Positions 15,288-64,000 of a stretch of DNA of 64,000 nucleotides are shown here, in pieces. Both the position numbers and the translations under genes were made by a program. Source of the stretch: Medicago truncatula (taxonomy: Eukaryota > Streptophyta > Magnoliopsida > Fabales > Fabaceae); contig NC_053043.1 of assembly GCF_003473485.1 (NCBI RefSeq), forward strand, positions 19,966,001-20,030,000. The letters run 5' to 3'. The notes under the pieces are model-generated. The model saw only the letters and a program-made list of their open reading frames with translations. It was not told the DNA's origin and ran no database searches. Numbering within the stretch: position 1 is the first letter of the stretch; every line of letters begins with the position of its first letter.

Positions 15288-15318
15288 GTAGAATTGTGAT
15301 ATCTCAGATTTGGATGTA

Positions 15319-18300
15319 ATGGCTCCAATACGCTCCACAGGATTTGTTGATCCTGGTTGGGATCATGGCATTGCTCAAGATGAGCGGAAAAAGAAGGTTA
15401 GATGCAATTACTGTGGGAAAGTTGTTAGTGGTGGGATATACAGATTAAAGCAGCATTTAGCCCGAGTTTCTGGTGAAGTAACATACTGTGAAAAGGCTCC
15501 AGAGGAAGTCTACCTAAAAATGAAGGAAAATCTGGAAGGGTGTCGTTCAAATAAGAAACAAAAGCAAGTTGATGCACAAGCATATATGAATTTTCAGTCT
15601 AATGATGATGAAGATGATGAAGAGCAAGTTGGGTGTAGAAGCAAAGGAAAGCAATTGATGGATGGCAGGAATGTATCTGTAAATTTAACTCCTCTTCGGT
15701 CCTTAGGATATGTTGACCCAGGGTGGGAACACGGTGTTGCTCAGGATGAGAGAAAAAAAAAAGTCAAATGCAGCTACTGTGAGAAAGTTGTTAGTGGCGG
15801 TATTAATAGATTTAAACAACATTTGGCTAGGATTCCTGGAGAGGTAGCACCTTGTAAAAGTGCTCCAGAAGAAGTTTATCTTAAAATAAAAGAAAATATG
15901 AAATGGCATCGCACTGGAAAGAGACATAGGCAACCCGAGGCTAAGGATCTGATGCCTTTCTATCCAAAGTCTGATAATGAAGATGATGAGTATGAACAGC
16001 AGGAAGATACTTTGCATCATATGAACAAGGAAGCTTTGATTGATATTGATAGGAGATACTCTAAAGATACAGGAAAGACCTTTAAGGGAATGTCCTCTAA
16101 TACTAGCCCAGAACCAGCGTTGAGAAGATCAAGATTAGATAGTTTTTACTTGAAACATCCCACGAATCAGAATCTTCAAACTTGCAAACAACTAAAAGTT
16201 AAGACAGGACCCACTAAGAAATTACGCAAGGAAGTTTTTTCTTCAATTTGCAAGTTCTTTTGCCATGCAGGAATTCCTTTACAAGCTGCAGACTCTGTAT
16301 ATTTTCATAAAATGCTGGAATTGGCTGGTCAATATGGACAAGGACTGGCATGCCCATCCAGCCAACTTATTTCGGGTCGCTTTTTGCAGGAGGAAATCAA
16401 TTCCATTAAGAATTACCTTGCTGAATATAAGGCTTCCTGGGCAATCACTGGTTGTTCGATAATGGCTGATAGTTGGAGAGATGCACAGGGTAGGACAATT
16501 ATTAACTTTCTTGTTTCATCGCCTCATGGTGTATACTTTGTTTCTTCAGTTGATGCCACTAATGTAGTAGAAGATGCAACATATTTATTTAAGCTTTTGG
16601 ACAAAGTAGTGGAAGAACTAGGTGAGGAAAATGTAGTGCAGGTAAAATGATTTTTTCTATTCTTGTGGCATCCTCCTTTGTCGTAAATATTAACTTGTAT
16701 CTGTTATTAATCTGGTTCTCCTATATCCCCCTTTTGATGTAGGTAATAACTGAAAATACTCCTAACTATAAAGCTGCTGGAAAAATGCTTGAAGAAAGGA
16801 GAAGGAATTTGTTCTGGACGCCTTGTGCTATCTATTGTATTAATCAGGTGCTTGAAGATTTTCTGAAGATTAGATGTGTAGAAGAGTGCATGGAAAAGGG
16901 CCAGAAAATTACAAAACTAATATACAATCAAATATGGTTGTTAAATCTTATGAAAAGTGAATTTACCCATGGGAACGAGCTTCTAAAGCCAGCTGGCACC
17001 CAGTGTGCTTCTAGCTTTGCTACATTGCAGAATTTGTTGGATCACCGAGTTAGTCTCAGAAGAATGTTTCTTTCAAACAAATGGATGTCATCCAGGTTCT
17101 CCAGTTCAAGCCAGGGGAAAGAGGTGCAAAAAATTGTTTTGAATGTCACATTTTGGAAGAAAATGCAGTCTGTGAGGAATTCAGTATATCCGATATTGCA
17201 AGTGTTTCAAAAGGTGTCTAGTGGCGAGAGCTTGTCAATGCCATATATATATAACGACTTGTACAGGGCAAAACTTGCAATCAAATCTATTCATGGCGAT
17301 GATGCACGGAAATATGAGCCATTCTGGAAGGTGATAGACAGGCACTGTAACTCTCTGTTTTGTCATCCTCTTTACTTGGCTGCTTACTTCTTGAATCCTT
17401 CATACCGATATCGTCAAGATTTTGTTTCGGTATGCCAGAATAATATTTTTCTAATGGTTGTGAATTTTCTAATTTTATTCAAGTTCTCTTCTGAAGTGAA
17501 TGTTTGATATGTCTGTAGCATTCTGATGTAGTACGTGGTCTGAATGAATGCATTGTTCGGCTAGAACTAGATAATATGAGACGAATATCTGCATCGATGC
17601 AAGTAAGATATCCTTAATGACTGCTATATGATATATTTTATTAAATATTTTCTAATTATTATATCTTATTCACAATGATATTATTTCCAGATTCCTCATT
17701 ATAATTCAGCTCAAGATGACTTTGGAACTGAATTGGCAATTAGCACAAGAACAGGTCTTGAACCAGGTAAATTACTGCGTTAGATGCTTCATGTAACAAT
17801 TAGATATGCGGAGTTGTGTTGCTAATTCTATGAGTTGATTGATTAATTTACCCTCTTTACCTCACTAGCTGCTTGGTGGCAACAACATGGAATAAGTTGC
17901 TTGGAGTTGCAAAGAATAGCCGTTCGCATATTAAGTCAGACATGCTCATCTTTTGCATGCGAGCATGATGGGAGCATGTATGATCAGATATATAGCAAAA
18001 GAAAAAATCGCCTATCACAGAAGAAACTTAATGACATTATGTACGTTCACTACAACTTGCGACTTAGAGAATGCCAAGTAAGAAAAAGGTCTAGGGAGTC
18101 AAAATCAACCTCTGCTGAGAATGTTCTACAAGAGCACTTACTTGGTGACTGGATAGTTGATACTACTGCACAAAGCTCTGACAGTGACAAGGTAATCAGT
18201 GCTTAGCATTAATTGCTGTTAATTGGATTCCTGATACATTTATAGTTGTCTTGGCGATTGTTAAGTTATATTTTTATGTTTACATGCACTATATATGTTT

Positions 18301-43435: not shown

Positions 43436-43860
43436 TACTATGCGGATGGTAGTTTGGGTAACTGGGTTCAACAGCTTTCTGGGTATTGCCAATAATACTT
43501 ATGCGGAGCTTATGGCATTGTTTCTTTTTCTGAAGCTTGCTAAGAATATTGGTTGCAATCAAATTTGTTGCCATTCAGACTCAAAAACTATTATTGATAT
43601 TGTTACTAAGCCAGTTAACAAGTACCATTGCTATGCTTCTATCATTACTTGTGTTCAAAAGTTATTGAGAATGGATTGAGAGTGCAGTTATGTCACTCTC
43701 TCAAAGAAGGGAATGCAAGCACATATTTTTTCGCTAAATTGGGTGCCGCTTGGGACGGAAGGCTTGAATTCTTTTCTTTTAAGTGACTACTTGAGGGTTC
43801 TTTATCCTATGGGCTAAGCTTCTCGTTTCTTTTCTTTTTCACTTTTTAAGAATATGTACC
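43436..43860 (+). mobile_element. LINE 3' end with RNase H domain
   Basis: A type-1 RNase H block as found at the C terminus of plant LINE reverse-transcriptase proteins: TYAELMALFLFLKLAKNIGC, then HSDSKTIIDIV. After a short frame change near 43676 the reading continues as CHSLKEGNACTYFFAKLGA. The 3' end is the usual short U-rich trailer. 5'-truncated and dead. Confidence 0.65.
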
Positions 43861-44243
43861 AAAAAGAAATACAATATAGTGTGACACAAATGGTAAATAA
43901 ATATGGCCCTTGACTATTGGTCAAATAAACACATTTGTTGTGAGGTCAACCCCTTAAATGAATTTCAATTACCTCAATGAAATTAGTCTTTGTAGTTGTA
44001 TAAATTTTTAAAATCTCAAAACTTGATTTTACTAATGAAAGATATGTTGATGTTCATTTAAAAATGTAATCATGTTAAATGTCTAATATTGATTAACAAC
44101 TTAAAAGCAGGGTCAAAATTCAAGTTCAGGCCAAATAAAAAAAATTATACATTCTGATATGCTTCCTATCTTAAACTATATCTTGGCTATAATTCTGATA
44201 TGCTTCCTATCATAACCTGTTTCTTAGCTCCACCACAAAAGTT

Positions 44244-46171
44244 TCAAGTAGGCTTCATGTGCAATAGATCTGCAATTGATTCTGGTCCAAACATCCTAAC
44301 TAGCTCTTCCTGTTCCACCAACAAATCACACTCAAATTAGGAGCAATCTTGGAAAATAGAGCTTTAAGATATTATCTTTGTAAACAAATATTAAAAGCTT
44401 TGAATAAATAATTGTCATCTAACAAGATGAACTTGGCCACATTCATGTTATGTAACTTAGATAATTTGTTGCATTTCAAGTTTATTTAATTGTTTCTCAT
44501 ACAAATATTAGAAAACAAGATGGCCTTTTTCTAATTGAAAAAATATTTTCTCAAATCAAACAAGTATATATATCTTAATTTAATGAATGGTATAAGATTT
44601 ACCTCAAGAGAGTCGTTTTCATTGGTGAGCTCCAGACATTTCTCAGAAAGCTTAGCGAGCCTTTGTGTTAGGACGGAATTTTCTTCCTTAAGAGTGTCCC
44701 TCACTTTACATAGCTCTTCGTATTCTTGCTGGCAAGGCATATATAATGAGGACATCAAATAAAATACATAGTTGAATAGATCATCATATCATAACATTCA
44801 ATAATTTATTAAATAACATTAGAGTAAGGAGTTGAAAACAAAAAACTTTCTTGGACAGAACAATTACATCCAATAATCAAATATTTCTACAGATTATACA
44901 AAATTGCAGTTGAATCAAATTCCGATTAGCAATACTTCTACAGTGCAGCTATAGCTGCTAGCATATCACGGACAATAGTGATTTATTTAAAAAAATTATT
45001 ACGGTATTGATAAGGCGCTGCCTATAACATGTTTGTATGAGAGAACATGTAAAGTGAGATTTTCCAAGTATGTGCACATCCTAATGAATCAAAAGAGATT
45101 TTACAAGTTTAGCTAATCCAACAAAAAATAAAACTTTTCAAACATGCTACGAAAACAAACAATTTTTATAATTACCCTAAATTCAGTGTCAGAGTCATAT
45201 TCAGATTCATATTCAGATTCAGAGACGACTTTCCCTAAATTCTGAGCCAGCCCAGATGGATTTTCTACAAAGAAACAAGATGCAAGACTGTTAGCCACAT
45301 GAACGGCAGTCCATGGTGTTTGGTACTAGTCATTCTGAACATTCAAATTATTGATCAAAATAAAACATGAATTTTTATTATATGATAGTCAAAAGAGAAA
45401 AATCCATAATCTTACCATCCTCAGAAATTATGTTAGATTTCTGCTTCTTACTTAAAGGAGAATCCTGTCACAGAAAGGATGTAATTAGACTTTTTTGCCG
45501 AACACGTTATATTCATCAACCACATATTTATGTAAAAAATAATCGATAAACATACTTTGTTACTGTCATCTTGATCTCCATCTGTTGATCTCTTGCTTCG
45601 ACTTGCTGCACTGCACACATAAATTTTTTTGTTCAGTCTTTGGGAAAATGCTATTAACAAGTTTACCAGAAGAAAAAGAACAAACTGTACCTCATTGAGG
45701 TTCCATCCCTATCATTTTTCGGTGCAGCAGACTGGTTTGCATATTTTTTTGATTCGCCAGTAATTAAACATACACCAGGCTGTGAGTTTCCAGCAAATAA
45801 TTTGTTGAAATCTGGGTTTCTTCTGTGTACCATTTCTGAAAAAGCCTGCGCAGCATCCTGACCAAAATGCATAAACATTTTTATATGAAAATGAGTCAGT
45901 TTTTTTTTTCCTACGTAAAAGGCGCAAGTTACATGACCACAGATAACCATCACAAATTGGTTCAGAGCAGAAAATGTTTTACACCTGCCTAGTTGTATAC
46001 CAATGTGGTAGCATAGGTTTGTTTGGAGTTTGCTGCTAGAGAGAAAAATCAAAGAAAAATAGATCATATCAGCTATAAGAAGACTTCACATAAGGAAAAT
46101 TAATTAAGACTGCCATAACATGATTTACTGACATCTTGACTGCCAAATGGATTGGACTCTTTCTTTTCCAT
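44244..46171 (-). CDS. GBF-like bZIP paralogue A, lacking the basic-region exon
   Basis: Predicted 212 aa from eight in-frame exons: 46171-46133, 46032-45985, 45857-45691, 45610-45556, 45464-45416, 45264-45176, 44728-44603, 44309-44244. Leucine zipper exon: QEYEELCKVRDTLKEENSVL and TQRLAKLSEKCLELTNENDS; last exon EELVRMFGPESIADLL then HMKPT. Both match the C-terminal half of group-G G-box-binding factors. Copies B and C carry an extra exon (NRKSA.RSK basic region) between the last two upstream exons and the zipper; here it is gone, yet phases are all 0 at that join so the frame stays open. The exon ANNALLQYDALHDPTELS of copy B is also absent. An acidic ESEYESEYDSD repeat lies just before the zipper. 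Could be a functional dimerisation-only bZIP or an early pseudogene. A 5' UTR exon ends at 47032. Confidence 0.7.
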
Positions 46172-47208
46172 TAAACTTGAGAAACTTGTGAATCCCGTAG
46201 TTTCCTGAATAAAATATTTGCATTCAAATCAAACATCAAGATAATGTTCATAATGTCAAAGAACAAGCCTATTCTATATAAAGATAATTATGAACATAAT
46301 GTTAAAGAATATTTGGCAGACTATCTGGATATTTACATTAAAAGTTCATTAACTATACCACACCAGATAATGGTTTTATCAAGTTTGATAGGTTTAAACT
46401 TCGAAAAACAAAGAGATTTCATGTATAAATAAATAAAACCGATCTATTTCTTTTCAATCAATACCAAATTGAAAAATCTTGACCCTAATCCTTTTCTGCC
46501 AATCGCAATCGCAAACAATAGAGATCTGACAATCATAAATTATTTTCAACACTCTTGTAACATTAAAAAAAAAACTATTTTCTTACTATGCTTAATTTTT
46601 AGTACTTACTGCTAAACTAGTGTTCTACAATTACAAATCTCTCGATATTGGAGAAAAATCAAAATTGAATAGACATTATAAAAACTCTATAATCGCCTAT
46701 ATAATCTTCCACCAATCAAGCAAAATTTAATTTAAACCCAGTATCCAATTACACAATCCACTATCATTATCTACACGGAAACCCTATAAAGTAGCATAAT
46801 CCTATTCCATTTGAAACCGATTTTTTTAGATAAAACACGTATACATAATGAGTACAGTATTGTCATAACACATCTCTAACTATTTTGTGAAGTGTTAACC
46901 CTCCGATTTCGAGGAGAAAAGGTCCGGACAGTTCGGTGTTTATCCCATATGAAAGTAATAATAATAGGGTTGTAACCCCGACATATACAATAAAAGCAAA
47001 TTGAATAAAAAAGAAAAAGGTTGTAAATTACCGGAAGTGAACGTGAAGGAGTTGGCAAAAGTGAAAGGCCTCAACAATATAGGGGGTTTCAATAAAGAAC
47101 AAAGAGACGGTTAGGTTTATAATAAGATAACAATAGCATTACTGGTCAACATATATAATGGACTACTAACTTGAATTATAAAAGCCCAATAACTTAAGCT
47201 CAATAACT

Positions 47209-47570: not shown

Positions 47571-48489
47571 TTTTTTGAATAAAAGACAGACTTATATTAA
47601 TTCAATAAATCTTGAAAGTACACCTCATTAATAGAGGGGGGTATATCTTCAATCCATACGTTATCTGGATCGGATATAGCAAGTTGAGCCAATTGATGGG
47701 CCGGAACATTGTTTTCTCTATGGGTAAACATGAATTGACAGATGTCAAATTCTAATTGAATCCTTTGGATTTCCAGGATAACACTACCAAGGTAGGTTCT
47801 ATCTTCAGTATTGGACTTACGAACCATTTTCCAGATTGTTTCGTTGTCTCCTTCAAAAACAACTTTTCTGAATCCACACTCGCGAGCCATTGTCATAGAT
47901 TTAAGCAGACCAAAAGCTTCTGCAAGCATAGCATTTTCGGATCCTGGAACCTTCCATGTAGCAGCGGCCATAACAAGGCCCTCAGAGTTACAAACAATGG
48001 CGCCTAAACCCCACCAGCCTTGAACTTGAAGATTTGCATCGTGTTTACCTTCACAAGGTGCGTTTCTGGCTTCCTCCAACTAGTTGATTTAGTTCGTCTA
48101 TTGGATTGGGAGATTGGAGCATCACGATCAGCTTCATTAGAGTTTGTACTATTTGCTTGGCGGTAATCTGAGATGCTGGTGTAAGCCCGTTGAATAATCT
48201 CTACTTCAGGTAAGCTTCTATCTTTAAAGACGCTGAGATTGCGTGCATACCAAATATAGTATGTAATAGATACAATCTGGATGAGAACTTCTGGTTTAGC
48301 GTGTTGAATTTTGTCAATTAACCGCTCAGGAAAATTTTTAATGCGTTGGTCAAGAATTTTAAGGTTTAGAGAAGAACCAAACCAAACTCTGGACACCAAG
48401 GGGCATTCCATAAAAGCATGAGTAGAAGTTTCAATTTTAGAATAACATCTAGGGCAAAGTGGAGGACCATGAATGCCTCTTTTTTCCAT
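47571..48489 (-). mobile_element. LINE, 5'-truncated, zf-RVT plus RNase H
   Basis: Minus-strand protein starts in a zinc-binding zf-RVT block (PLCPRCYSKIETSTHAFMEC) and runs to an RNase H domain (VQGWWGLGAIVCNSEGLVMA, then EGDNETIWKMV). The frame changes once near 48050. The 3' trailer ends in a poly-A, seen as TTTTTTTTTT at 47569-47578. A fairly young copy given the long open frames. Confidence 0.85.
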
Positions 48490-48635
48490 TTTTTGGTAGT
48501 GATATATTAGGATAACTGACTATAACTAATCTTCTGCTAACAATATATTAGCCTAAAAAATTTATTTGCATCAATTCTATTGTGAAATGCGGCGGTGACC
48601 AAAATAACCTTAGTTTATTTATTTCTAATAACAAT

Positions 48636-53442: not shown

Positions 53443-55925
53443 TCAAATAGGCTTCATGTGCAATAGATCCGCAATTGATTCTGGTCCATACTCCTTAACG
53501 AGCTCTTCCTGTTCCACCACCAAATTACCCTCAAATTAGCAACAATCTTGGAAAATAGAGCATTCAGAACCACAACACAATACTGAGAATTAACTTTTTT
53601 ATAAACCAATATCAAAAGCTTTGAATAAATAATTATCATCTAACAAGATGAGCTTGGATAATTTATGTTAGGTAACTTAGATAATTTGTTGCACTAGTTT
53701 ATTAGAAAGTTTGTTACAAAGAGAGATCAATAGAATCGTTTACATTAATGGACGTCTTCTGATTTTTGGATTCATAAGCATCTTAGTTTATTTAATTGTT
53801 TCTCATACAAATATTAGAATACAAGATGGCCTTTTTTTAATTGAAAAAATTATTTCTTAAATCAAATAAGTATCTTGTTTATTGAATGATAAAAAATTCA
53901 ACAAGTAAGAAGGGGAGTTAAAATGATTGACCTCAATAGAATCGTTTTCATTGGTGAGCTCGAGACATTTCTCTGAAAGCTCAGCGAGCGTTTGTGTTAG
54001 GACCGAATTTCCATCCTTAAGAGTGTTTATCTTTTGACATTGCTCTTCACATTCTTTCTGACAAGGCACAAATAATGATAACATCAAATGAAATACAAGT
54101 TAAATAGATCAACGGACAAACACATCAGAAGTTAGATAATCAGATCATCTTTTTCTTTACCTTTGATCTTTGAGCTGATTTCCTGTTTGACAGTCTTTTT
54201 CTTTCTTTTCTTATTTCATCTACTTCCTGTCAAAAGAAATGCTACTAAATAGGAAATGCTAGACATTGTGCAAGAGAGTTAAGAATTAAACTTGTCAACA
54301 TTAAGAAGGGATTTACTTTCTGAAATGTTTTTACCATACATATTTAGCTACGAAGTTAAGAAGGGATTTACTTTCTGAAATGTATGCACAAAAACTGATT
54401 TTAACTATGTGCACATCATAATGATTCAAAAAAGATTTTACAGGGTTGGCTGTTCTTCTAGTCTAGCTAATTCACAAAAAAAAAAAACTTTTCATTTATG
54501 CTACGAAAGCACATAAAACTTTATAATACCATATTTTTTAGTTGAGCATCAACATCAATGTCATTGTCAGATTCCTTGACGACTGTCCCTAAATTCTGAG
54601 CCATCCCAGATGGATTTTCTACAAAGAAACAAGGTGCAAGACTGTTAGCCAGATGAACTGCAGTTCATGTGTTTTGTATTATAGATCAAATAAAGAATGA
54701 ATTCTTATTATAAAATAATTAAAAGAAAAATCGATAATCTTACCATCACCAATAATCATGTTAGATCTTTTCTTCATACTTAAAGGAGAATCCTGCTAAA
54801 GAAAGGATGTAATTAGACATTTTTGTCGAAATTTTATATAACCTGTACTAAAGAAAAATTTCAAAGCTTTAATAAACTACTCATTTCCTAAGTGTTCTAA
54901 CTTCTTAAGATAACAGTGGCAGAACACATTACATTCATCAACCACATTTATATGAAAATTTATCGATAAACATACTTCGTTACTATCATCTTGATCTGCA
55001 TTTGTTGATCTCTTGCTTCCACTTGCGGCACTGCGCACATTAAGGATTTTGTTCAGGCCTTAGAAAAATGCTATTAACAAGTTTACCAGAAGAACAAGAA
55101 CAAACTGTACCTCATTAAGGTTCCATCCCTATCATGTTTTGGTGCCGAAGACTGGTTTCCATATTTAGTGAATTCCCCAGTCATTAAACTTAAGACAGGC
55201 TCTGAGTTTATAGTACCTAATATGTTGAATTCTAGGTTTCTTTCACGCACAATTCCTGAAAAAGCCTTTGCAGCATCCTGACCAAAATGCATAAACATTT
55301 GTATATGAATATACAAACTCGTACACAATTAAGTATGTAAGTTTCTCTAAGATGAAGAAACGCTCATCGAATCATTTCACTAGTAATTCTTAAGTACCCC
55401 AACCCCACCCCTAAAAAAATATGAAAATTCCACTAAATCCGCTAAATATATACTAACTATAATTTCGTAGAAATTATGATAGAAAAAATAAATGAATGTA
55501 GTGCAATGAATGTATCAGTTGAAAGGTTTTGACCCACCTTTGCTACACGAGGATTATAGGAGAGCTCCGTGGGATCATGTAGAGCATCATATTGAAGTAG
55601 TGCATTATTTGCCTACACCAAACAAAAAAGAGTGTGAAAACCAACCTAAAAACTAGTTACGGATCCTTTTGTCGTAGTTTAAAAACCAGCTGGCCATAAA
55701 AAGCAGTAATCTATGAAAACCAGCCCAAAAACCTGCATAGTTGTCTCCCAATGTGGTAGCAGAGCTTTGTTTGAAGTTCGTTGTTAGAGAGAAAAATCAA
55801 AGTAAAATAGATCATATCAGCTATGAGCAGTCTGCACATAAATAAAATTAGTTAAGACAGACATAACATCTTGCGGCGAAGATATTGGAAGGTCTGCCAA
55901 ATGGATTGGATTCTTTCTTCCCCAT
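53443..55925 (-). CDS. GBF-like bZIP paralogue B, probably splice-impaired
   Basis: Exons by homology with A and C: 55925 (ATG, MGKKESNPFGRPSN), about 55777-55733 (TSNKALLPHWETTMQ), 55612-55538 (ANNALLQYDALHDPTELS...), 55277-55111, 55030-54976, 54792-54744, 54618-54530, 54226-54161 (basic region ERKRLSNRKSAQRSK), 54057-53932 (zipper KECEEQCQKINTLK...), 53508-53443 (EELVKEYGPESIADL). All internal phases agree. Odd points: the acceptor of the second exon reads CTCTAACAAC where A has CTCTAGCAG, so its AG is lost. The donor after the basic region has moved four codons upstream (RSK then GTAAAG) because the original CAG/GTAC site is changed. Its status as a working gene is doubtful. A 5' UTR exon probably ends at 56464. 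Confidence 0.65.
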
Positions 55926-62543: not shown

Positions 62544-64000
62544 TCAGGTAGGCTTCATGTGCAAGAGATCTGCAATTGATTCTGGTCCATACATCCTAAC
62601 TAGCTCTTCCTGTCCACCACAAAATCACACTCAAATTAGTAGCAATATTGGAAAATAGAGCATTGAATACTACAATAAAAAAAATATGAAAAGCTTTAAA
62701 TAAATAACTGTCATCTAACAAGATGAACTTGGCTACATTCATGTTATGTAACTTAGATAATTTGTTGAACTAGCTTATTAGAAAGTCTGTTACAAATAAA
62801 GATCAAAGGATATAATGTCCCGTATACTATTTTGATTCCTCGCTTAACCATCGTTTCTTTGTTTAATTAAATATTTCTCATACAACTATTAGAAAACAAG
62901 ACGGTCTTTTTCTAATTGAACAAAAATATTTTCTCAAATCAAACAAGTATCTTAATTTAATGAATGATATAAAATTGAACAAATAAGTAGCGGAGTTAAA
63001 ATGATTGACCTCAATAGAATCGTTTTCATCGGTGAGCTCGAGACATTTCTCTGAAAGCTCAGTAAGCGTATGTGTTAGGACCGAATTTTCATCCTTAAGA
63101 GTGTTTATCTTTTGACATTGCTCTTCATATTCTTTCTGAGAAGGCACAAATAATGAGAACATCAAATGAAATACAAGTTAAATAGAGCAACGAACAAACA
63201 CATCAGAAGTTAGATAATCAGATCATATTAAACATTTAATAATTTAAAAAATCAGAGTAGGGAAAAAAAAAACTAGTTGGGAAAGAAGAAAAACAACATC
63301 TTTTTCTTTTTACATTTTAATCATATGCATCCAAAGCATTGTCGTATGTACCTGTTTCTTTATCTTTGATCTTTTAGCTGATTTCCTGTTCGACAGTCTT
63401 TTTCTTTCTTTTCTTCTTTCATCATCTTCCTGTCAAAAGAAATGCAACAAAACTTAGCAACATTAAGAAAGTAGGATTAATAAATGGTGGTAACATTTTA
63501 ACATAAAAGACTCATATATGACAGGAATGAAGCGTAGAAAGAAAAATATGCAAAATAAAACAAACGAAAAATTTTAGACAAGTTGAAAATTTATGTTCTT
63601 ACAAGTTGAAAAACTAACACAGGAATATGATTATAACTATAGTGGCCAACAAAGCTAAGCATATCTTGTCAATAAGTGCTGCGCATCATTGCTACGGCGC
63701 AGCTATAGCAACTAGCATATCACAAACAATAGCGATTTGTTTAAAAATTTAACTACTGTATAGGGCTACAGCGCCGCTATTTAACAACACTGCCTATCAC
63801 ATATTTGTTTTAGAGACCATGTTAAAGTGGCCTTTTCTAAGTATATGGACATCATAATGATTCAAAAGGGATTTTACAAGTTATCTTAATAAAAGACGGA
63901 TTGTTCCTCTAGTTTAGCTAATCCACAAAAAAAAACTTTTCATTTATACTATGAAAACGCATAAAACTTTATAATACCATATTTTTTAGTTGAGTATCAA
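62544..64000 (-). CDS. GBF-like bZIP paralogue C (partial, runs off the window)
   Basis: Four 3' exons are visible: 64000-63978 (end of ..QLKNM), 63429-63352, 63135-63010 and 62609-62544. The 78-nt exon encodes the basic region ERKRLSNRKSAKRSKIKKQ, with the bZIP signature N-x7-K and the correct spacing to the zipper that follows: KEYEEQCQKINTLKDENSVL and THTLTELSEKCLELTDENDS. The last exon is EELVRMYGPESIADLLHMKP then T and stop, like the ELVRLCGPEAVANL end of GBF1. By family it should bind G-box (CACGTG)-type sites as a dimer in the nucleus. It is the best-preserved of the three copies in this region; the 5' half lies beyond the window. Confidence 0.85.

Follow-up and report, generated by a model that had tools for sequence, protein, structure and literature searches.

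Three bZIP copies in a tandem array

The window analyzed here, a 64-kb stretch of Medicago truncatula DNA with no N bases, contains three bZIP gene copies, which we call A, B, and C, with zipper exons approximately 9.1-9.3 kb apart. A search with the A zipper as the query found no fourth copy in the window. The region 43800-46800 (minus strand) was compared with the rest of the window and aligned to the two paralogues, and exon models were built. Copy C runs off the window at position 64000 and is therefore known solely from the end of exon 6 onward. The exons of A are numbered 1 to 6, 8, and 9, with number 7 reserved for the basic-region exon present in B and C. The features are as follows; unless stated otherwise, exons come from the exon models.

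44244-46171, minus strand: copy A, a GBF-like bZIP paralogue without a basic region; eight exons, 212 amino acids, 7/7 introns GT-AG, open frame from ATG to TGA
46133-46171, minus strand: A exon 1, 39 nt; donor uncertain, with a second GT 13 nt downstream
45985-46032, minus strand: A exon 2, 48 nt
45691-45857, minus strand: A exon 3, 167 nt
45556-45610, minus strand: A exon 4, 55 nt
45416-45464, minus strand: A exon 5, 49 nt, encoding SKKQKS
45176-45264, minus strand: A exon 6, 89 nt, ending in an acidic 15-codon tail, ESEYESEYDSDTEFR (charge count), that adjoins the zipper
44729-45175, minus strand: A intron without the basic-region exon (exon 7 of B and C); no relic above shuffles, flanks align to C
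44858-44936, minus strand: stretch of A without a convincing counterpart, approximately 65-80 nt; C has approximately 400 nt there, including exon 7
44603-44728, minus strand: A zipper exon 8, 126 nt
44244-44309, minus strand: A last exon 9, 66 nt, with TGA
about 53443-55925, minus strand: copy B
55538-55612, minus strand: candidate 75-nt phase-0 exon of B, ANNALLQYDALHDPTELSYNPRVAK, between exons 2 and 3; predicted, without a counterpart in A
54161-54226, minus strand: B basic exon 7, 66 nt, 12 nt shorter than that of C (exon model and alignment)
53932-54057, minus strand: B zipper exon 8
62544-64000, minus strand: copy C, cut by the window end
63352-63429, minus strand: C basic exon 7, 78 nt (exon model and Pfam bZIP_1 match)
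63010-63135, minus strand: C zipper exon 8

The separate basic-region exons that an earlier, sequence-only reading of this DNA had assigned to B (66 nt) and C (78 nt) are both recovered by the exon models. The bZIP part of C aligns without gaps with the DNA-binding part of Jun in a PDB search (best E 0.0021); the 10 distinct sequences matched at E up to 1 include six Jun chains and no plant GBF. Against the Pfam bZIP_1 cut-off of 27.6 bits, C passes with 34.4 and B falls below with 19.1, the input for B starting at exon 3 and that for C being partial.

The basic exon of B is short because the donor present in C is gone: sequence 3′ of the exon, including that donor, is missing from the 54058-54226 region of B. 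The donor of B, GTAAAG, lies 12 nt upstream, adjoins the deletion, and arises from one base difference (ATA in C, GTA in B); as a result, the B hinge is 4 residues short. The basic region of B is out of register with its zipper, and the hinge violates the N-x7-R/K-x9 spacing given in the part of PMC4676100 consulted. In addition, the exon-2 acceptor of B is lost (TAACAA, versus TAGCAG in A), and B may be spliced alternatively with exon 2 skipped. The suggestion that A arose “beside its targets” fares poorly, given the shortened hinge, the score below the bZIP_1 cut-off, and the lost upstream acceptor of B, and the incompleteness of C in the window.

The candidate 75-nt exon of B is possibly a remnant of the GBF proline-rich exon. 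An imperfect tandem duplication surrounds CATTTCAGAAAGTAAATCCCTTCTTAA in intron 6-7 of B (54270-54390). Between the ATG and a conserved upstream block, A exceeds B by approximately 450 nt (46172-46700), and this extra sequence is possibly an intron of the 5′ UTR, with 46201 as the acceptor site.

The basic-region exon is absent from copy A

The earlier reading had placed no basic exon in A between 44728 and 45176, and had named a diverged one within 44729-45175 as evidence that would count against it. We looked for such an exon and found none. Specifically, the best local DNA score of C exon 7 against the A intron was 16, which was matched by 427/500 dinucleotide shuffles, and the score of B exon 7 was equalled by 495/500. 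When 20-nt flanks were added to C exon 7, 249/500 shuffles were as good, and in a protein-level comparison of the basic exon with the intron in three frames, 69/500 were. As a positive control, the B region compared with C exon 7 gave a DNA score of 128 and a protein score of 101. A scan of both strands across 13,300 bases surrounding A likewise revealed no relic: the top DNA scores, 34 and 30 for the two strands, lay below the highest shuffle scores of 36 and 32 (20 shuffles per DNA strand; the protein scores of 32 carry no shuffle control). With scores at shuffle level, a diverged basic exon in the intron or nearby is rejected.

These results bear on the possibility of an assembly error, or of a wrong gene model in which the exon is located elsewhere or a different set of exons is spliced. 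The intron does contain six in-frame AG..GT segments (one of 78 nt) that could mechanically serve as exons, which speaks for a wrong model, although none resembles a basic region, and a cryptic replacement exon was therefore rejected. The relic is absent from the surrounding DNA, the window is free of N bases, and the flanks are continuous on both sides. We regard either error as very improbable.

The A intron aligns to C until about 44937 and then again from about 44860. The segment between (44858-44936) has no convincing counterpart in C or B, its best match elsewhere in the window having an E of 0.14. As previously proposed, intron words matching C are present on both sides, and a segment was lost between them. 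The exon loss relative to C is real, but judging from the alignments it was not a single clean cut: either several events took place or filler was left behind. The basic region is a defining part of bZIP proteins, and hence A lost an exon rather than B and C having gained one. The claim that A was born by exon loss, with the exon present in B and C and absent in A, is thereby upheld.

Exons 6 and 8 of A have GT-AG borders and join in phase 0, and the donor of the new junction (exon 6) agrees with the consensus at 7/9 positions, compared with 5/9 in B and C. As the earlier reading had it, the phase-0 joins leave A open through a full zipper. Altogether, A lacks the exon, its flanking exons are in frame, and its eight-exon open frame encodes a complete zipper preceded by acidic residues.

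The zipper of A and its family membership

The d positions of the A zipper read L L L L L L M, with all six heptad leucines kept, and all three copies have Asn at the same two a positions. At the first zipper position, only A has Leu; B and C both have Gln. Leu at this position is typical of GBFs; if Leu is ancestral, A retains the fuller zipper. Of the two elements that define PF00170, the heptad leucine zipper is present in A, and the basic region, with N-x7-R/K nine residues before the zipper, is absent. Pfam returned zero bZIP family matches for A at E up to 1 and recognized no domain outside the zipper. The proline-rich MFMR domain was not found in A by Pfam, and tblastn of an approximate GBF fragment gave a best E of 1.4 in the window.

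In all three copies, exon 8 begins 5 residues before the first zipper position, at a phase-0 intron. We take the zipper and C-terminal sequence of A to resemble GBF1-type proteins. Based on the intron position, a pattern also found in group A, and on this presumed resemblance, A is provisionally assigned to group G (GBF-like). According to the part of PMC4676100 consulted, a phase-0 intron at −5 relative to the first zipper Leu is, in legumes, the intron pattern (a) that characterizes groups A and G, so that A shares its intron with group G bZIPs (GBF1/2/3, bZIP16, and bZIP68). Unlike these proteins, A has neither a detected MFMR nor a basic region.

The reading frame of A is intact while its amino acids change

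Exons 3-6, 8, and 9 of A and B have equal lengths, with 0 indels in 549 bases; the 666 intron bases that could be aligned contain 10 (Fisher p 0.0029). The zero count in exons depends on the equal exon lengths and on the chosen paralogue alignment. If gaps are made cheaper, an alignment of the exon 6 tail with a compensating pair of 1-nt gaps also becomes possible. The indel count and the A-B dN/dS omit exons 1 and 2, since their splice sites in B could not be recovered; in the paralogue alignment, exon 1 differs in length by 6 nt. The intron figures omit introns 2-3 and 6-8, with low-identity columns dropped.

A carries no disabling stop or frameshift, and none of its splice sites is lost. 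On a neutral branch with K set to 0.075, half the A-B intron distance of 0.15, the chance of acquiring no stop is 0.084 (simulation), that of keeping all 28 splice bases is 0.12, and that of acquiring no indel is 0.008. The product of the three, calculated by hand, is approximately 8e-5, for a gene that was selected for study for its open frame. By the same arithmetic, neutrality over more than about a third of the A branch is disfavored at the 5% level.

At the amino-acid level, the A-B dN/dS is 0.93 across 183 codons (95% interval 0.61-1.56) and falls to 0.85 (0.51-1.43) when the exon 6 tail is excluded. The earlier reading had named a dN/dS near 1 together with disabling changes in other accessions as evidence against it; the former is what we find between A and B, whereas no disabling change was found in A itself. 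It had also proposed computing dN/dS on the zipper, and for this exon we obtained 0.66 (0.30-1.70) for A-B, 0.47 (0.20-1.11) for A-C, and 0.51 (0.18-1.56) for B-C. Both values for A are below 1, yet both intervals include 1, and a firm claim of purifying selection on the zipper is rejected. Moreover, A and B differ more often in exons (99/549) than in introns (90/666; Fisher p 0.032), the intron figure being lowered by the filtering of columns for alignability. As such, amino-acid constraint is not visible. These comparisons make it look as if the reading frame of A is protected while its amino acids change freely, and protection of the frame may predate the exon loss and not have continued after it.

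A dN/dS near 1 is what would be expected if A were a decaying copy in an array under relaxed constraint, the exon loss being one of several degenerative events and the open frame a matter of recency and luck. The state of the sister copy B, with no exon-2 acceptor and without its original exon-7 donor, points the same way, as do the absence from A of the candidate 75-nt exon of B and an intron between exons 2 and 3 of A much of which cannot be aligned to B. However, if the gene has been neutral for most of its branch, it is improbable that A would show no stop, no frameshift, and no splice-site loss, and the state of the loss site, which is not that of one fresh cut, speaks slightly against the loss being very recent. 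We consider decay the main competing explanation and a serious possibility, although one that we would not bet on.

An acidic segment adjoins the zipper

The loss of exon 7 places ESEYESEYDSDTEFR directly onto the zipper. Among the 21 residues before the first zipper Leu, A has 10 acidic and 1 basic residue, for a net charge of −9, compared with +6 in C and +5 in B. Part of this acidity was pre-existing, since a hypothetical skip of exon 7 in B would give a net charge of −5. The exon 6 tail of A differs from that of B at 19/45 bases and 12/15 residues, far more than the rest of the exons (binomial p 2.3e-5), and despite this fast divergence it is still acidic. Random substitution of the B tail yielded a mean net charge of −0.8 and reached the value of A, −6, or lower in 0.32% of 5000 runs (P 0.0032), in a test designed post hoc, after inspection of the sequence. 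An exact 12-nt tandem repeat, GAATCTGAATAT, lies in A exon 6 (45180-45222) and encodes ESEYESEY.

An acidic stretch in place of the basic region beside a zipper is what characterizes the A-ZIP design. In A-ZIP53, as described in the part of PMC5662769 consulted, an acidic amphipathic segment takes the place of the basic region and, as a DNA mimic, pairs with that of the partner. Copy A has the same order of parts, a retained zipper with an acidic stretch immediately N-terminal to it. In contrast, A-ZIPs as presented there are designed and carry a glutamate-rich amphipathic helix, whereas the stretch of A is rich in Ser, Tyr, and Asp and is the natural sequence of a neighboring exon, the likeness being one of sequence. 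By this analogy, and given that the segment changed fast and stayed acidic, A might act as a natural A-ZIP, its acidic arm covering the basic region of a GBF partner while the zippers pair. We think this quite unlikely; if true, its action would be stronger than plain dimer sequestration, and A would be a natural counterpart of a laboratory design principle.

A putative dimerization-only relative of GBFs

The absence of the exon is thus confirmed, whereas its interpretation is supported in part; it is plausible, with the function of A putative. The explanation that we favor, with a probability a little short of even, is that A is a still-coding, fast-evolving GBF-like paralogue that is able to dimerize and unable to bind DNA. 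It would have originated in the tandem array and lost its basic-region exon in its own lineage. The gene would be transcribed, and its protein would enter the nucleus either with a partner or through SKKQKS, which fits the classical monopartite nuclear-localization pattern and which we take to be a putative signal. Because its Asn residues fall at a positions that also hold Asn in B and C, the A zipper would be expected to pair with GBF-type partners. A heterodimer with A would have one basic arm only and no stable DNA binding, and A would act as a naturally occurring dominant negative that lowers the amount of active GBF dimer. According to the parts of PMC4599898 and PMC4012195 consulted, members of group G, and of whole bZIP networks, dimerize freely with one another; GBFs are therefore the likely partners. 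An electrostatic case for A:C heterodimers was dropped, since the g-e′ pairs show no preference for A:C over A:A and include, for A:C, one KK and two EE.

Loss of a basic region need not produce an inhibitor. In the portion of PMC4188613 consulted, Nrf1beta without its basic region gave nuclear staining in ~5% of cells and was not dominant negative, so that such a loss can abolish nuclear entry. This precedent lends some weight to the alternative that A works without poisoning its partners, as a zipper-bearing cofactor or scaffold whose acidic region recruits proteins to GBF dimers or which acts outside the nucleus. A frame that is protected while the sequence evolves fast, and an exon 6 tail that diverged strongly from B and stayed acidic, would fit such a role, but Pfam found no domain beyond the zipper and no specific partner is indicated. 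We consider a role of this kind unlikely.

Relation to known systems

Dominant-negative relatives of transcription factors commonly stem from truncation or splicing. If the dimerization-only explanation holds, the loss of an internal DNA-binding exon with phase-0 joins shows how readily such a gene architecture yields an inhibitor, and the phase-0 hinge boundary is, according to the part of PMC4676100 consulted, common to group A and group G bZIP genes. Like LITTLE ZIPPER, KIDARI, and PAR1, as covered in the part of PMC5381583 consulted, A comes from a duplicated transcription factor, with the dimerization domain kept and DNA binding lost. The description “microProtein-like” nevertheless fails on size: microProteins are single-domain proteins of at most 120-140 amino acids, the limit of 140 coming from this miPFinder paper, and A, at 212 amino acids and with an internal exon loss rather than truncation to one domain, is rejected as a strict microProtein.

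The closest reported likeness is OebZIP35 of olive (PMC7288668), which has the Leu-zipper motif only and lacks the basic region; in the part of that family survey consulted, it is a gene-model remark without an exon-level origin or paralogue comparison. In a search of titles and the beginnings of abstracts in open-license PubMed Central, which holds little of the subscription literature, we recognized no plant bZIP paralogue made zipper-only by exon deletion. Surveys based on the bZIP domain would overlook genes of this type, as Pfam misses A.

Other features of the window include a BAHD-type transferase fragment (PF02458; 41306-41758) that adjoins copy A, remains of a non-LTR retrotransposon (RVT_3 and zf-RVT; 47597-48519) between A and B, and a hAT-transposase-like gene with BED zinc fingers and DUF659 (15292-17507).
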